In this document: one piece after another, positions 47,574 to 56,722 of the stretch | Numbering within the stretch: the first letter of the stretch is position 1 | Layout: the number at the start of each line of letters is the position of its first letter | Source of the DNA: Polyangium spumosum | GTDB lineage: Bacteria; Myxococcota_A; Polyangia; Polyangiales; Polyangiaceae | Assembly: GCF_009649845.1 (NCBI RefSeq) | Contig: NZ_WJIE01000008.1 | Coordinates: 124,001-188,000, forward strand | Length of the DNA: 64,000 bases | Reading direction: 5' to 3' | Position numbers and translations under genes: made by a program | The notes under the pieces: model-generated | Seen by the model: the letters and a program-made list of their open reading frames with translations, nothing else | Database searches by the model: none | Told to the model about the DNA's origin: nothing

Positions 47574-49142
47574 ATGGACCATCGACTCGGTACAGCGCTC
47601 CTCTCGACCCTCCTCGCTTCGCTCGTGCTCACCGGCTGCGCGGACGCGGGCTCGGATCAATCCTTCGGCTCCGGCGGCAACCCCACGGAGCCCGGCGGCG
47701 GCGCGACGGGCGTCTCGCAGGGCGGCGCCCAGGATTTTGGCCTCTTCCGGAAGATCCTCGAGGCGGGCGAGATTCCCGGCCCCGGCACGCTCGACGACCT
47801 CGGCTTCTTCGCCGAGCACAAGCTCGATTACGCCCCGCCGAGCTGCGGCAACGACGTCTGCATGCACGGCCTGCTCGGCGTGATGGGGAACATGATCACC
47901 GGCTCGAATTGCACCCTCGTCCAGATCGGCATGAACTCGCCGATCGACGTGGGCAATTTGCAGCGCCCGCCCCTGCACCTCGTCATCGCCGTCGACGTGA
48001 GCGGCTCCATGTCCGGCGAGCCCATGGATTACGTGAAGGCGGGCCTCGTCGAGATGATCCCGTCCCTGAAGTCCACGGATCGCGTCTCCCTCGTCACGTA
48101 CTCGACGAGCGCGAACCTCGTCCTCGATCACGTGAGCGCCTCCGATACCCAGGCGCTCCAGAGCGCGTTCCAGGGCCTCTTCGCGGCTGGCTCGACGAAC
48201 CTCTACGACGGCCTGTTCACCGCGTTCTCCGTCGCGGATCAGCATTTTGATCCGACGTTCCAGAACCGCGTCCTCTACCTCTCGGACGGCGTGGCCACCG
48301 CGGGCCTGCAGAACCCGAGCAAGCTCACCTCGCTCGCCGAGGCGTACGCGAAGAAGGGCATCGGCGTCACGACGATCGGCGTCGGCGCGGATTTCGACGT
48401 GGAGGTCATGCGTGATCTCAGCGAGGTCGGCGCGGGCAATTTTTACTTCCTCGAAGATCCGAAGGCCGTCGTCGAGGTCTTCACCGACGAGGTCAATACC
48501 TTCCTCGTGCCCGTCGCGCTCGACGTGAACATCGACGTGAGCGTCGGCGGCGGTTATGTCGTCCGGGGTGTGTACGGGACGAACGGCTGGCAGACGGCCG
48601 AGGGCGGCGGGAACATCAACATCCCGAGCCTCTTCCTCGCTGGCCGCACGAGCTCGGACGAGCCCATCTCCGAGGGCCGGCGCGGCGGCGGCGGCGCCAT
48701 GATCCTCGAGCTCGTCCCGCGCTCGGGCGCGATCAGCGTGCCCGATCCCTACGAGGTCGGCTCGCTCGGTTTGTCGTACAAGGACCCGCTCACGGGCCAG
48801 ACGAAGACCCAGTTCACGAACATCAAGGCGCCGCACCTCTACGACGAGCCCGAGACGCATTTCAGTGACGACACCGTCGAGAAGGGGTTCGTCATGCTGA
48901 ACATCTATGCTGGCTTCAAGCTCGCCGCCGAGCTCACGGCCGACAGCGATCCGCGCACCGCGCGCCGCACGCTCGAGGCGCTCCGCCCGAATGTCGACGG
49001 GTGGCTCGCGGAGAACCCCGATCCGGACATCCAGGACGACCTCAAGTACATCGACATGTTCATCAACAACCTGAAGGTCGTCGAGGCAACCACCACGCCC
49101 TACGAGCCCGCCGATCCGCCGCCGCCCTGGCCCGCGGATTGA
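47574..49142 (+). CDS. VWA-domain lipoprotein
   Basis: This 522-residue lipoprotein (LVLTGC) contains a von Willebrand A domain at about 135-330 with an intact MIDAS (AVDVSGSMSG), the downstream Thr region (STNLYDGLFTA) and LYLSDGVAT. C-terminal sheets and helices follow that resemble the tail of chloride-channel-like VWA proteins. AGGAGG precedes ATG 47574, 18 bp after the upstream gene. It probably binds a protein ligand at the outer membrane via a divalent metal. Partner unknown. Confidence 0.9.
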   Translation: MDHRLGTALLSTLLASLVLTGCADAGSDQSFGSGGNPTEPGGGATGVSQGGAQDFGLFRKILEAGEIPGPGTLDDLGFFAEHKLDYAPPSCGNDVCMHGLLGVMGNMITGSNCTLVQIGMNSPIDVGNLQRPPLHLVIAVDVSGSMSGEPMDYVKAGLVEMIPSLKSTDRVSLVTYSTSANLVLDHVSASDTQALQSAFQGLFAAGSTNLYDGLFTAFSVADQHFDPTFQNRVLYLSDGVATAGLQNPSKLTSLAEAYAKKGIGVTTIGVGADFDVEVMRDLSEVGAGNFYFLEDPKAVVEVFTDEVNTFLVPVALDVNIDVSVGGGYVVRGVYGTNGWQTAEGGGNINIPSLFLAGRTSSDEPISEGRRGGGGAMILELVPRSGAISVPDPYEVGSLGLSYKDPLTGQTKTQFTNIKAPHLYDEPETHFSDDTVEKGFVMLNIYAGFKLAAELTADSDPRTARRTLEALRPNVDGWLAENPDPDIQDDLKYIDMFINNLKVVEATTTPYEPADPPPPWPAD

Positions 49143-49203: not shown

Positions 49204-49647
49204 ATGAAGCACAGGCACATGTTCGTCGCGCTCGCGGCCGCCTTGCTCTTCGCCCTGCCCGGGTGCAAGAAGCCCGGCGACGCCGCGGGCGAGCACGGCG
49301 CCGAGGCCGAGGCGTTTGGTCGGCTCTCGATCGACGAGGTCGAGGCCAAGATGAAGGAGGCGAAGGAGGGCAAGCTCGCCTTCCACGTCATCGACAACAA
49401 CGCGAAGTCGACCTACGACAAGGGCCACCTGCCCGGCGCGAAATGGGTCGATCACGAGAACGTGCGGGCCGAGGACCTCCCCGCGGACAAGGAGGCCACG
49501 CTCGTCTTCTATTGCTCGAACGAACGGTGAACGGCTTGCCATGAGGGCGCGGTCGGCGCCCTGAAGCTCGGTTACAAGAAGGTCTTCATCATGCCCGCCG
49601 GGATCGCCGGCTGGAGGAGGGCCGGCAAGCCCGTCGAGAGACTTTAG
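49204..49647 (+). CDS. Rhodanese-like lipoprotein with in-frame TGA, probable selenoprotein
   Basis: ATG 49204 opens a lipoprotein (LFALPGC) with a rhodanese domain (FHVIDNNAKSTYDKGHLPGAKWVDH). The first stop is TGA at 49528. The same frame continues beyond it: TACHEGAVGALKLGYKKVF, then IMPAGIAGWRRAGKPVERL, stopping at TAG 49645. The continuation is exactly the second half of a rhodanese domain. The TGA stands where the loop CxNxxC-x-A-S/C needs the catalytic Cys (CSNER-[TGA]-TAC), giving a 147-residue protein with Sec109. A SECIS-like hairpin follows. If the TGA is read as stop, the gene makes only 108 residues and lacks the active site. Sec insertion is inferred; Cys-to-stop decay is the alternative. 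Confidence 0.68.
49534..49567 (+). promoter_or_regulatory. Candidate bacterial SECIS element just after TGA 49528
   Basis: AGGGCGC (49544-49550) pairs perfectly with GCGCCCT (49556-49562) around the loop GGTCG. A lower GCTT/AAGC pair (49534-49537, 49564-49567) extends it. Bacterial SECIS hairpins lie inside the coding region just after UGA and carry GGUC-type apical loops bound by SelB. Here the loop starts 20 nt after the TGA, close to the spacing in E. coli fdhF as I recall it. Confidence 0.6.
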
Positions 49648-49802
49648 CTCCGAAGAGGGCGGCGGCGGCAGGCGACATCGAAGCGATGGTGATTCACCCA
49701 ACCGCGCCCCCTGTCGCATCGGTCACATCGGGGGGGATCGTCGCATCGTTTGTCCAAGGGGTTTGTCTTGATGCTGGGGCTGTGGTAGGGACCTCTCGAC
49801 GC

Positions 49803-49816
49803 ACTCGTGCGCGAGT
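49803..49816. promoter_or_regulatory. Dyad just upstream of XRE regulator gene
   Basis: ACTCG (49803-49807) and CGAGT (49812-49816) flank a 4-nt spacer, immediately before the AGGAGG site of the XRE gene. It could be an autoregulatory operator. The 180-bp gap around it holds no gene. Confidence 0.35.
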
Positions 49817-49827
49817 AGGAGGAACCT

Positions 49828-50169
49828 GTGCCCCGACGAACCGTAGCAAAACCATTCTGCCTGAAGGTTGGCGCTCGTATCCGCGAGCTACGAAAGGAGC
49901 ACGGCAAGTCCTTGCAGGACCTCGCCGATGCCTCCGCGATCTCGAAAGGTCACCTGTCGAGCATCGAGCAGGGCCTCGCGGCGATCACCATCGAGACGGT
50001 CGAGCGCATCGCACGCGCGCTCGACATACCCCCTTATTGCGTCATGACGTTCCCGGCGGACGACGAGGTGAACCGTATCGCGGATCTCGCCCGCAAGGTG
50101 CCGAAGGGCGAGCGCCGAAAGCTCCGGAAAGACCTCGAGGCGCGCACGGCGCGCGAGCCCTCGAAGTAA
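49828..50169 (+). CDS. XRE-family transcriptional regulator
   Basis: This 113-residue protein has a classic Cro/C1-type helix-turn-helix at about 15-68: RIRELRKEHGKSLQDLADASAISKGHLSSIEQG. A basic C-terminal tail follows (PKGERRKLRKDLEARTAR). GTG 49828 is chosen because AGGAGG lies 5 bp before it. It converges with the small gene on the other strand at 50182, leaving 12 bp. Targets are unknown; a short dyad overlapping its leader suggests autoregulation. Confidence 0.88.
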   Translation: MPRRTVAKPFCLKVGARIRELRKEHGKSLQDLADASAISKGHLSSIEQGLAAITIETVERIARALDIPPYCVMTFPADDEVNRIADLARKVPKGERRKLRKDLEARTAREPSK

Positions 50170-50181
50170 ATTTCCGGCTGC

Positions 50182-50589
50182 TCATGCCGCGCGCTTGCGC
50201 GCGAACACTTCCACGGTGATGTTGAACGCGGCGCGGTGCAGTGCATCCGCCGCGCGTGTGGCTTCTTCCGCGGTCGCGGCATGGCCACGGAACACGTCCC
50301 GGCCTTCCGCGTCGATCACCCCCGCCTCCACGTAGACGCGGCCATCACTCCCAAGCGCGAGTTTGTGGAGCAGCGCCCACACGAGCAAGTCCGCCGCGGT
50401 CAACTTCATGGCTTCCTCGGCATGTAATGCGTAGCCGACGAACACCGGGCGATCCGGAGGCGGCGGTTCGTCCTCCAGCTGGAAATAAAGCGTGCCGTCG
50501 CTGGCGAGCGCGAACTCCGTGGCCACCTCCAGAGGTTCGGGCCGCTCGGGAGCGGGGGGAACCCTTCTCTCGCTGGGCTTCCTGGGCAT
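50182..50589 (-). CDS. Small hypothetical protein
   Basis: The 135-residue protein has a Pro/Arg-rich start (MPRKPSERRVPPAPERPEP) followed by a compact alpha/beta region containing two similar segments: ALASDGTLYFQLED and ALGSDGRVYVEAGV. Each is followed by helix-forming AEEAxK/AEEATRAAD, so it looks like an internal duplication. AAAGGAG precedes ATG 50589; the frame is open upstream without a site. No family recognised. Presence of the duplication suggests a real protein. Confidence 0.72.
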   Translation of the reverse strand: MPRKPSERRVPPAPERPEPLEVATEFALASDGTLYFQLEDEPPPPDRPVFVGYALHAEEAMKLTAADLLVWALLHKLALGSDGRVYVEAGVIDAEGRDVFRGHAATAEEATRAADALHRAAFNITVEVFARKRAA

Positions 50590-50723
50590 GGTTCTGTCTC
50601 CTTTGCATGAACTCGTGAGGGAGCGAGATGCTCGCCCCCTCGAGGACAAACAATGCGCCAGCGAGCACGAGGTAACGCGACCGCCGACGATTGGCAGGAG
50701 AGTGTCCGAACCCGAGGCGGGGA

Positions 50724-51893
50724 TCAGTCGATGAGGTAAAACGGGTGGAGGCAGCAGAAGGTGACGGCTCTGGTCACGTCCTTCTTGGCCTCGCCCTTCG
50801 GCGCTCCCCCTGTCGCACTGCACGTACCCGGCACGTAGTCAAGGTCGGTGATCGCCTTGCCAGCGATGGCATGCCCCGGCGGGAGGATCGGCACACACTG
50901 GTCGTGGGGGGACAACAAGCCGAGCTGCTCCGACTGGGAGGAGCAGGAGGGCCCCTCATACAGGCGAACCGATGCCGCGCATGCGCTCCCTTCGGGCGGC
51001 CCGCATGCGCACGCCTCGCAGTCGCGATCGTCGAACACCGCGTCCTCGGGGTACATCTCGTACCGGTCCCAGTTGTAGTTGTCCGGGCAGGGCGCGTCCG
51101 CCCCTTCACGAACGACACACTGGAGCCACCCAGGCCCGGGATCACTGGCGCAATACCGCGTGCCAGCGTCGTTCGGCGCGCAGGCGTCGTCGTCCGTGTT
51201 GTTCATGCACGCGAGGCCCGCGAGCTTCCACTCGGTCTTCTTGGTGAAAGCGGGCTTCTCGCTCTTGGGGCTGCACCCCTCCTCGTTGGTCGGTCCGGGG
51301 AGCGGTGAGGCCCACACGGACTGGGCGCACGGCTCCCCGCCGCACTGGGCACCGGCCGGAAGGGCGTTTTCGCTCGTGCAGGAGCCATCCCAACCGGCCG
51401 GACCATCAAAAGGGAGGCTTACGGCCCCACTTTCCCCGCACGCCCCCGCGCGGATCTCGAACGTCTCCGGCAGTCCTGTGCACGCGCCTGTCGAGGGGCC
51501 GCATTCGCAAGGCTCGCACGCGGCAGGGGCATCGAGGTCCGCGAAGAGGCGGAATTTCTCGCTCGTGGCGCCTTCGGGGCACTTGGCCGGAAGCGTGCCG
51601 GGCGCCCCGACGAACAACGAGACCGCGACCTCCGACCAGTACCCGGCGTTTCCGCTGGGTACCGGGACGCACCGGCCTGGGCACGCGGATTGCCCAGCGT
51701 CGGGCTCGCCGGGGCCTGCCTCCGTGTTGGTCCCGGCGTCCCCCGCGTCGCTTCCGGCGTCCGGAAGACACTCGGGGTCGGGGAACAGGGCGTCGGGATC
51801 ACACTCCCCCACCGCGAAGGAGGGTGGCGTCGTGCACGACGCAAGGAGGAGCCCCAAGCTGAAAACGAGCAAAAAAACAAGAGGTGTTCGCAT
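50724..51893 (-). CDS. Cys-rich lipoprotein, last gene of sigma-factor operon
   Basis: The 389-residue lipoprotein (LLLASC) has an Asp/Gly/Pro-rich spacer (PDAGSDAGDAGTNTEAGPGEPDAG) and a secreted domain with many paired Cys (e.g. CEPCECGPSTGAC, CEACACGPPEGSAC). Two related segments containing C-x2-C-x-C-GP suggest an internal repeat. ATG 51893 lies 2 bp after the upstream PEGA/porin-like gene's stop, so translation is coupled. Probably a surface protein; function unknown. Confidence 0.82.
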   Translation of the reverse strand: MRTPLVFLLVFSLGLLLASCTTPPSFAVGECDPDALFPDPECLPDAGSDAGDAGTNTEAGPGEPDAGQSACPGRCVPVPSGNAGYWSEVAVSLFVGAPGTLPAKCPEGATSEKFRLFADLDAPAACEPCECGPSTGACTGLPETFEIRAGACGESGAVSLPFDGPAGWDGSCTSENALPAGAQCGGEPCAQSVWASPLPGPTNEEGCSPKSEKPAFTKKTEWKLAGLACMNNTDDDACAPNDAGTRYCASDPGPGWLQCVVREGADAPCPDNYNWDRYEMYPEDAVFDDRDCEACACGPPEGSACAASVRLYEGPSCSSQSEQLGLLSPHDQCVPILPPGHAIAGKAITDLDYVPGTCSATGGAPKGEAKKDVTRAVTFCCLHPFYLID

Positions 51894-51895
51894 GT

Positions 51896-53122
51896 TCAAA
51901 ACTCCCATCCCGCGCCCAGTTGCGCGCCGAGCATGACCGGCGGGTGATCCGACAGGACCGTTGTACCAACCACCACCTTCACCCCGCTCGACAAGCCGAG
52001 GACATCGGCCGCCGCCTGGAGCGTGAAGGACTGCGTGACTCGAACCTTGGCGCCGACACGTCCACCCACGCCGGGCTTGACAAACGAAAAACTCGCGGGT
52101 TTGTAGCTCTGCCCGGAGTACTCGACGTTGAGCACGCCGAGGTGCGCGAGCGCGCAGCCGTAGAACCACCTGTAGTGTCCGCACACGCTGGCGAGCCCGC
52201 CAGCCGTCATGGCCGTGATTTGCCGACTCGCGACGCCCGACGTCAGCCACGCGGCGCGGGCTTCGAGCCCGATCGACACGTTTTCGTTCGGCTGCAAGCT
52301 GCCACCGATCATCGCGCCCACGGCAGGCGACCACGACGCCACGCCAAACACCACCACCGGCCCCGCCCCGATGAAGCCACGTAGCCCCTTTTTTTCGCCC
52401 GTCGCCTTCGATGGATCGTCGTAGCCGAACGGGTCTTCCTGCTTCGTGAACTCCGGCCCGGCCACCACCGCCGGCAACGTCGCAGTCGGGTCCTTCTCCG
52501 GCACGTGGACCGCCGGCTCCTGCTCCACCGTGCGCGCCGTCAGGGGAACGGGAACCTTCATGTTCTTCCCCTTCACGCCCGTGAACTTCACGACGGCCTC
52601 TTCGAAGCCGTCGAGGGTCGCGCGGATCTCGTGTTCTCCTCCGGCGACGAACGTCCAGAAGGCCGAACGCCCAAGCGCATTCCGATCGACGCCGTCCACC
52701 ATCACACGCGCGCCAGCGTGCGAGACGATCACCTCGACCCACGTGCCGTGCGCGCGCGCCACCTCGTGCGCCTCGAAAAAACGCCTGCGCTCTGCACGCT
52801 CCGCGGGTGTCGCGGCGGGAGCCTGATGGAGCGCGTGGAGCAGGAGCTCGGCCGCGTCCTCGGGCCTGCCGCCCTCGACCAGCACGAGCCCGAGGCGCCC
52901 CGAGACGAGCGGATCGGACCGCACGTTGAGCGCCTGCCGGTACGCCCTTCCGGCTTCACGCAGCCGCCCCGCGGCGCGCTCGTGGTCTCCGAGCTGCGCG
53001 AACGCCTGGAACCGCAGCTCCGTGTCCGCCTCGGGGCTCTCGTCGGTGGCGCTGGGGAGGCTCTGCGCCCACGCCGCGGGTGACGCGAAAAGCAAGATCG
53101 AACCGAACACGATCGCGCGCAT
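51896..53122 (-). CDS. Periplasmic/outer-membrane protein with TPR-, PEGA-like and barrel-like parts
   Basis: The 408-residue protein has a cleavable signal (LLFASPAAWAQ). TPR-like helices follow (FQAFAQLGDHERAAGRLREAGRAYRQAL), then a PEGA-like beta domain at about 125-190 (VIVSHAGARVMVDGVDRNALG, EHEIRATLDGFEE). The C-terminal half consists of amphipathic strands ending in Phe (LGAQLGAGWEF), resembling an outer-membrane barrel. It lies between the sigma factor gene and the Cys-rich lipoprotein gene in one operon. Probable envelope structural role; no named family. Confidence 0.82.
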   Translation of the reverse strand: MRAIVFGSILLFASPAAWAQSLPSATDESPEADTELRFQAFAQLGDHERAAGRLREAGRAYRQALNVRSDPLVSGRLGLVLVEGGRPEDAAELLLHALHQAPAATPAERAERRRFFEAHEVARAHGTWVEVIVSHAGARVMVDGVDRNALGRSAFWTFVAGGEHEIRATLDGFEEAVVKFTGVKGKNMKVPVPLTARTVEQEPAVHVPEKDPTATLPAVVAGPEFTKQEDPFGYDDPSKATGEKKGLRGFIGAGPVVVFGVASWSPAVGAMIGGSLQPNENVSIGLEARAAWLTSGVASRQITAMTAGGLASVCGHYRWFYGCALAHLGVLNVEYSGQSYKPASFSFVKPGVGGRVGAKVRVTQSFTLQAAADVLGLSSGVKVVVGTTVLSDHPPVMLGAQLGAGWEF

Positions 53123-53157
53123 GAACCGGATCCTTAACACAATCGACGGCTCGGCTC

Positions 53158-54069
53158 CTAGAAGGACGAGTCCGCGGACGAACCCGTCTGGTCTGCGGAC
53201 AAACCCACCGCCGGGGCGCCTTGCTTGTCGCTGTCGACCAGGGGACGCCGCGGTTTCGTCTGCTTTTGCTTCTTCGGCGTGGGCGGCGCGATGACGGGCA
53301 CCGATGCACCAGCGTGCTCGAACGAGGGCACCGGCTTGGCAGCGTGCGCGACCTCCGCGGCGGACGCTGCCACGACGCGCGCCGCACCCGTGGCCACGGC
53401 GTGAAGCTCGCCGTCAGGCTCGCGCGGCGAGGAGAGCGCGAGCGACGCGAACACCATGGCCATGAGGAACGCCCAGACATGCCCGAGCCGGTGAACCCAG
53501 ACGAAGAACAGCACGAGTACGGGATGCGGGACGGAAAACAGGTCATTGCCCAGCCGAGCCCGAAGGAACCTTCGGGCCCGAGAGAGCGCCACCTTCGACG
53601 CGTCCGCGGAGATCCCGAGCTTCGCCCCAGCCTCCGCGTGTGACCGCTCCTCGACGACGACCATCCACAGCACGGCGGCCTGCGCGGGAGGCATCTCTTG
53701 CACAGCGACGATCAATCGATCCATTGCCTGCTTGAGCTGCGCCGCGCGCTCCGGCGAGGGATCCGGCGACGCTGCCCTCTCGGCGTGTCCATCGTCGGGT
53801 TCGAAGACCTCCTGATGACGCCTGGTCGCGCGGCGCGACTCACCCATCACGTTCCGCGTGATCGTCACGAGCCACGGCTTCATCCCGTCCGGGTGCGGCG
53901 TGTAGTCCGGGAGCTTGCGGACGGCGTTCGTGTACACCCGCTGCACCTTGTCGTCCGCGGACTCACGCGTGTACGTCTCGTCGCTCTCGACGATGCGCTT
54001 GATCTCGAGCCGCAGGCCAAGGAGTTCGGCGAGCCAGCGGAGGGGCGGCGGCTTGGAAGAGGGGCCCAT
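53158..54069 (-). CDS. ECF-like sigma factor with C-terminal transmembrane tail
   Basis: This 303-residue sigma-70-family factor has region 2 at about 40-85 (VQRVYTNAVRKLP, WLVTITRNVMGESRR) and region 4 at about 115-170 (MPPAQAAVLWMVVVEERSHAEAGAKLGISADASKVALSRARR). Unusually, the same chain continues into a hydrophobic helix at about 182-214 (PVLVLFFVWVHRLGHVWAFL) and a Pro/Ala-rich tail of 90 residues. That tail resembles the membrane part of anti-sigma factors, so the protein may be membrane-held until released. It heads an operon with the PEGA/barrel and lipoprotein genes, its likely targets. ATG 54069 is preferred over the longer frame. Confidence 0.85.
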   Translation of the reverse strand: MGPSSKPPPLRWLAELLGLRLEIKRIVESDETYTRESADDKVQRVYTNAVRKLPDYTPHPDGMKPWLVTITRNVMGESRRATRRHQEVFEPDDGHAERAASPDPSPERAAQLKQAMDRLIVAVQEMPPAQAAVLWMVVVEERSHAEAGAKLGISADASKVALSRARRFLRARLGNDLFSVPHPVLVLFFVWVHRLGHVWAFLMAMVFASLALSSPREPDGELHAVATGAARVVAASAAEVAHAAKPVPSFEHAGASVPVIAPPTPKKQKQTKPRRPLVDSDKQGAPAVGLSADQTGSSADSSF

Positions 54070-54202
54070 GACCAGATCAATGTGGGGCGGGGCAGGAGGT
54101 AACAGGAAATCGACACGCCGACATCGTTGCTTCCCCCGGCGCGGCCGGGCCGGTATAAACGCGCCTGCCGTTTCGTAGGGGCAAACCGAGAGGAGCACGT
54201 CC

Positions 54203-56722
<2,520 letters not shown>

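Follow-up and report, generated by a model that had tools for sequence, protein, structure and literature searches.

A probable selenocysteine-containing, rhodanese-like envelope protein of Polyangium spumosum with a C-x4-U active-site loop

Gene and overall fold

An open frame on the forward strand of the 64-kb window (the whole stretch of DNA analyzed here) starts with ATG at 49204 and ends with TAG at 49645–49647, and the only in-frame stop inside it is TGA at 49528–49530 (codon 109). As judged by sequence comparison, this frame (49204–49647) is with high probability a genuine selenoprotein gene, in which the TGA would be read as selenocysteine (Sec). The readthrough product is a rhodanese-like protein of 147 residues, and the Pfam model PF00581 (Rhodanese) covers residues 49–139 (49348–49620) with 48 bits against a cut-off of 22.2. 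The initial annotation held that the frame continues through the TGA and completes a rhodanese domain, and this is borne out by the Pfam match and by the motifs LGYKKVF, MPAGIAGW, and GKPV, which are all in frame on the 3' side of the TGA. Any gene caller that halts at TGA is expected to report a fragment of 108 residues, and genes of this type are easily missed for that reason.

The product starts with a signal peptide that has ALPGC at its end and continues through a linker into the rhodanese domain. The N terminus begins with a hydrophobic segment, and the signal peptide (49204–49266) closes with a probable lipobox, whose Cys21 (codon 49264–49266) is shared by 90% or more of the 31 relatives aligned. 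The Pro at position −2 of ALPGC is unusual and deviates from the strict lipobox pattern; the lipoprotein assignment of the initial annotation is probable. One Sec form from a lake metagenome genome (L042) is devoid of the lipobox Cys, and its signal peptide looks ordinary. The protein is thus predicted from its sequence to be an exported, probably lipid-anchored, single-domain protein of the rhodanese fold.

A structural model was built with AlphaFold2 from the 31 aligned relatives, with Cys substituted for Sec, and the block-mean pLDDT values were 97–98 for residues 41–140. The top structural matches to the model were rhodaneses, with 3tp9 giving a Z score of 17.1 (rmsd 1.4, 101 aligned residues) and GlpE (1gmx) a Z score of 15.9 (rmsd 2.3, 105 aligned residues). 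An entry for the C63D mutant of YgaP was also among the matches.

Active-site loop

The loop reads C104-S-N-E-R-U109 and is followed by T-A-C112-H, so that it contains the motifs C-x4-U and U-x2-C. The codon for Cys104 (TGC, 49513–49515) occupies the canonical position of the catalytic Cys, the TGA (49528–49530) lies at +5 from it, and the codon for Cys112 (49537–49539) follows at +3 from the TGA. In the alignment with solved rhodaneses, FYCSNERU of the present protein corresponds to FYCGGGFR of 6mxv and FHCQAGKR of YgaP, and the loop Cys of both, the nucleophile in their families, coincides with Cys104. The same fold and the same correspondence of the loop Cys to Cys104 hold for GlpE and other single-domain rhodaneses. 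Sec109 is the final residue of the six-residue loop; 6mxv and YgaP have neither Sec nor Cys at this position but Arg. The initial annotation placed the TGA at the catalytic Cys itself. This assignment was rejected, because the loop Cys of the solved rhodaneses aligns with an intact Cys104, five residues before the TGA. Cys104 is invariant in the 31 aligned relatives and is present in 79 of 80 counted rows, the exception being L102, a seemingly decayed copy in which a TAG interrupts the frame and Gly has replaced the catalytic Cys. Judged from these alignments, the TGA replaces the second Cys of a C-x4-C motif that belongs to the subfamily itself.

Two residues could serve as the partner of Sec109. 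Of 20 Sec forms, 15 carry Cys three residues after Sec and 5 carry Ser there; Cys112 is therefore dispensable as a partner, and Cys104 is the better candidate. In the AlphaFold2 model, helix 111–121 starts directly after Sec109. A helix that begins right after the Sec is a typical setting for redox U-x-x-C motifs in other folds.

Alternation of TGA and Cys in the family

The family was defined as the matches with an E value of 1e-20 or better in the fetched loci, with repeats of a locus skipped. Among the 83 family sequences, the codon at the position of residue 109 is TGA in 21 (from 20 genomes) and Cys in 62, which answers the comparison with Cys homologs that the initial annotation had suggested. 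The loop pattern used for this count required Cys or TGA at +5 and failed on two matches, which were judged by eye: L103 carries TGA, and the second domain of L100 carries Cys. Since both failures also have one of the two, no third residue was found at +5. L100, L114, and L116 each contain two tandem family domains in one frame, both of the Cys form, and genome G414 has two Sec forms (L092 and L094) together with one Cys form (L080).

TGA at the loop codon occurs in 10 of 97 near genomes and in 17 of the 377 that make up the phylum set, with eight genomes common to both; the lake metagenome genome is included in the total of 20. The closest named relatives are Polyangium sp. y55x31, 6x1, and 15x6 (87–88% identical), in keeping with the myxobacterial host proposed at the outset. 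Among three other Polyangium orthologs, synonymous differences amount to 12–15 of 108 codons before the TGA and 0–1 of 36 after it, and, when the same three are set against the P. spumosum gene, to 5–10 of 108 and 1–2 of 36. A tree of 80 rows (without L102, L103, and the second domain of L100) requires at least six changes between Sec and Cys, although the underlying alignment has few columns and the tree leaves 33 of 77 inner branches unresolved.

The initial annotation regarded disabling mutations in relatives as damaging to its proposal, and none of the TGA-bearing family sequences has a further stop in the matched region. It is a negligible prospect that a nonsense mutation or a sequencing error placed the TGA in a gene that encodes Cys or is decaying: one base change does turn a Cys codon into TGA, and L102 does look decayed, but 20 genomes belonging to several families of the phylum carry TGA at this codon, which makes a sequencing error unlikely, and the absence of additional stops in the matched region and the few changes after the TGA do not fit a decaying gene.

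Among the matches listed, five weaker ones with a TGA were also read. In four of them, the TGA either ends the frame or lies beyond the limits of the domain. In the fifth (L147, genome G395), the TGA comes two residues after the loop Cys (YCLU), an arrangement that resembles the known CxU form, and this genome has selA; it is also the genome that carries the decayed-looking L102. TAG and TAA were considered as additional recoded stops and rejected: those read are terminal stops, except for the interior TAG of L102. Three rhodanese matches were found on plasmids, all with less than 60% identity and none spanning 80% of the query.

Selenocysteine machinery

The whole genome of P. spumosum (10.76 Mb, 61 contigs) was searched for the Sec machinery, whose absence would have spoken against the original proposal. 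All of the components sought were found. A tRNA-Sec scored 69.7 bits against a gathering score of 47, and ARAGORN reported the tRNA-SeC with anticodon tca. The selB gene is over its cut-off and adjoins the tRNA-Sec gene on the same contig; selA (490 bits) and selD (390 bits) are also over their cut-offs.

The machinery accompanies the TGA forms in the relatives as well. In the near genomes, selA is over the cut-off in 10/10 with TGA and in 36/97 overall, and tRNA-Sec in 10/10 and 41/97, respectively. In the phylum set, selA is present in 17/17 TGA genomes compared with 26/53 genomes that have Cys forms only (Fisher p = 5e-5, with kinship ignored). In this set, 239 genomes were counted as selA-positive, 238 being over the cut-off, and 11 weak or partial matches were treated as absent; when the five weak or partial matches among the Cys genomes were taken as present, the p value was 5e-4. 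Taken over both sets, selA is present in all 19 TGA genomes checked. Two genomes of the same genus (G002 and G004) have selA over the cut-off and gave no match to the rhodanese selenoprotein at an E value of 1e-5, so the gene has been lost or was never present there.

SECIS-like hairpin

A hairpin of 7 bp was predicted at 49544–49562, 20 nt after the TGA, with a folding energy of −14.1 kcal/mol, and thus lies where the initial annotation had placed one. It is composed of a stem (49544–49550 and 49556–49562) closed by the loop GGUCG (49551–49555). The bSECIS rules given in a recent review (PMC13188914) call for a loop of 3–9 nt, a stem of 4–16 bp, a G in the first two loop bases, a position 16–37 nt after the TGA, and an energy of −7.5 or lower, and the hairpin agrees with all of them. 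Taken alone, the hairpin of the P. spumosum gene is not significant: the z scores against shuffled sequences range from −0.10 to −1.26, and 36% of the synonymous recodings of the gene reach an equally long stem, because alanine codons in GC-rich DNA pair easily. Rfam gave no match at the gathering score in the 64-kb window.

The signal emerges from the family comparison. A qualifying hairpin, for which at least six uninterrupted pairs were demanded, is present in 21/21 Sec forms as against 7/59 Cys forms, with kinship ignored in this count. The 59 Cys forms are the 62 without L035 (in which the loop was mis-assigned), the decayed L102, and the second domain of L100. The spacing is 20 or 21 nt in 18 of the 21 Sec forms; in L019 and L022, the loop is further on, at 26 nt. 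Compared with their own recodings, the Sec forms fold better (mean z −0.75, n = 20), whereas no such advantage is seen in the Cys forms (mean z +0.23, n = 59). Within the ten sequences that share one register, compensatory changes affect a single one of the seven pairs, and pairing is frequently lost at the outermost position of the stem. The two groups also differ at the apex of the hairpin. The codon there encodes Val (10), Arg (8), or Gly (3) in the 21 Sec forms, whereas in the 59 Cys forms it encodes Glu (22), Lys (11), Ala (8), Arg (8), Gln (4), Ser (2), Asn (2), or Gly (2) and never Val, as though the choice of residue at the apex were dictated by the RNA signal.

These observations bear on two selenium-free alternatives, a true stop at the TGA and its readthrough with an ordinary amino acid. 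Readthrough of UGA is known in bacteria, and the case for Sec is a comparative one. However, Cys is the sole substitute for TGA (62/62), every TGA genome checked has selA, and the hairpin goes with the TGA forms. Moreover, TGA serves as an ordinary stop here, as the upstream gene terminates at TGA 49140–49142, and a 108-residue product would be deprived of the helix and strand that follow the loop. We consider termination or selenium-free readthrough very improbable. Sec insertion at 49528 is favored instead by the combination of the machinery, the alternation of TGA and Cys at one codon, and the hairpin, and this part of the initial proposal stands at the level of comparative evidence, as do the frame, the fold, and the retained Cys104.

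Comparison with known rhodanese-like selenoproteins

A literature search combining selenoprotein or selenocysteine with rhodanese, myxobacteria, or Myxococcota returned nothing relevant, the Myxococcota papers being judged by title. No NCBIfam model scored over its cut-off for the protein or for 10 relatives (8 Sec and 2 Cys forms). For the protein and for all ten relatives, the first-listed model was that of TsoB (NF045694), which was reportedly described by Haft and Tolstoy in 2025. The P. spumosum protein gave 40.5 bits with this model against a cut-off of 805 and matched profile positions 59–158 of 572 only. The model for GlpE, a classical thiosulfate sulfurtransferase (NF001195), gave 19.3 bits against a cut-off of 102.

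The initial annotation stated that rhodanese-like selenoproteins had been reported before, and this is correct: the 2026 review counts 119 selenoprotein families or subfamilies and gives five rhodanese-like forms with the motifs UxxS, UxxG, CxU, UxxG, and UxxxxU (PMC13188914). Form 5 is TsoB, which, like the present protein, has a rhodanese domain with two Sec/Cys positions five residues apart. TsoB has Sec at both positions (UxxxxU), whereas the first is Cys here, and it is a longer DsbD-like fusion (model length 572), whereas the P. spumosum protein has no DsbD-like part. The pair in TsoB would correspond residue by residue to Cys104 and Sec109. Form 3 (NF041203) likewise carries its Sec in the loop region of a rhodanese domain, but its motif is CxU in place of CxxxxU (CSNERU), and the P. 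spumosum protein scored 30.9 bits with this model against a cut-off of 115. Form 1 (UxxS, WP_010941598.1) combines PF00581 with one Sec, as is the case here; likened by motif only, its UxxS would fit a Sec at +5, as in the 5 of 20 Sec forms here that have Ser. The term CxxxxU was not found in the available text of the review. C-x4-U thus adds a Sec motif that is absent under that name from this text, as a variant of the known rhodanese-like selenoproteins, and form 1, compared by motif only, may share its Sec position (PMC13188914).

Proposed mechanism and biological role

With the high probability given above to the selenoprotein, SelB and Sec-tRNA-Sec would insert selenocysteine at UGA 49528 under the direction of the hairpin (49544–49562). 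For the folded protein, we propose a redox mechanism based on its loop motif and on analogy with known systems, and we give this mechanism about an even chance of being correct. Cys104 and Sec109 would make up a redox pair located at the edge of the rhodanese pocket. Here, Cys104 may accept sulfane sulfur or attack a disulfide, and Sec109 would then resolve the intermediate via a Cys–Sec bond with Cys104. A DsbD- or TlpA-like reductant of the envelope would regenerate the pair. Cys112 could assist but would not be required, as indicated by the Ser found in its place in some Sec forms. The role suggested by this analogy is thiol/selenol redox chemistry, or the handling or reduction of persulfides, in the envelope. 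TsoB, with its two Sec positions five apart and its DsbD-like fusion, agrees with an envelope redox role and does not demonstrate it (PMC13188914).

Provided that Sec is inserted, the protein could still act as a classical sulfurtransferase in which Cys104 alone carries the persulfide and Sec109 merely tunes the loop. The rhodanese fold and the retention of Cys104 are in line with this possibility. On the other hand, Cys or Sec occupies +5 in 83/83 family sequences, compared with the Arg of 6mxv and YgaP, and the repeated swaps are between Cys and Sec alone, which suggests thiol/selenol chemistry at this position. We lean against this explanation while regarding it as a serious one. The plain thiosulfate sulfurtransferase of the initial annotation is unsupported, because Cys104, the classical nucleophile, has been retained and Sec lies at +5.

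Clustering of neighboring open reading frames in 23 loci revealed no conserved partner gene beyond Ser/Thr-kinase-like frames. Neighbors were defined crudely, as stop-to-stop frames with a minimum length of 110 residues, so that shorter partners would be missed. The kinase-like gene starts 0.13–0.34 kb behind the rhodanese gene in three other Polyangium genomes. In P. spumosum, it comes about 4.5 kb later, and the intervening segment (49648–54203) holds an XRE-like regulator frame and others.

Returning to the proposed redox pair, we tentatively suggest, at somewhat less than even confidence, that the Myxococcota possess a family of envelope oxidoreductases of the rhodanese fold, in which a persulfide-binding Cys is combined with a resolving residue five positions further on that has repeatedly switched between Cys and Sec. 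These proteins may be free-standing counterparts of the rhodanese part of TsoB and would act outside the cytoplasm as electron donors for sulfane sulfur or disulfides. In the Sec versions, the SECIS element would impose Val, Arg, or Gly at its apex, where the Cys forms mostly have Glu, Lys, or Ala. The occurrence of related Sec and Cys versions within one phylum would offer a direct route to the contribution of Sec to a rhodanese fold, and the same family lets one ask to what extent a protein is dictated by an RNA signal located in its own gene.
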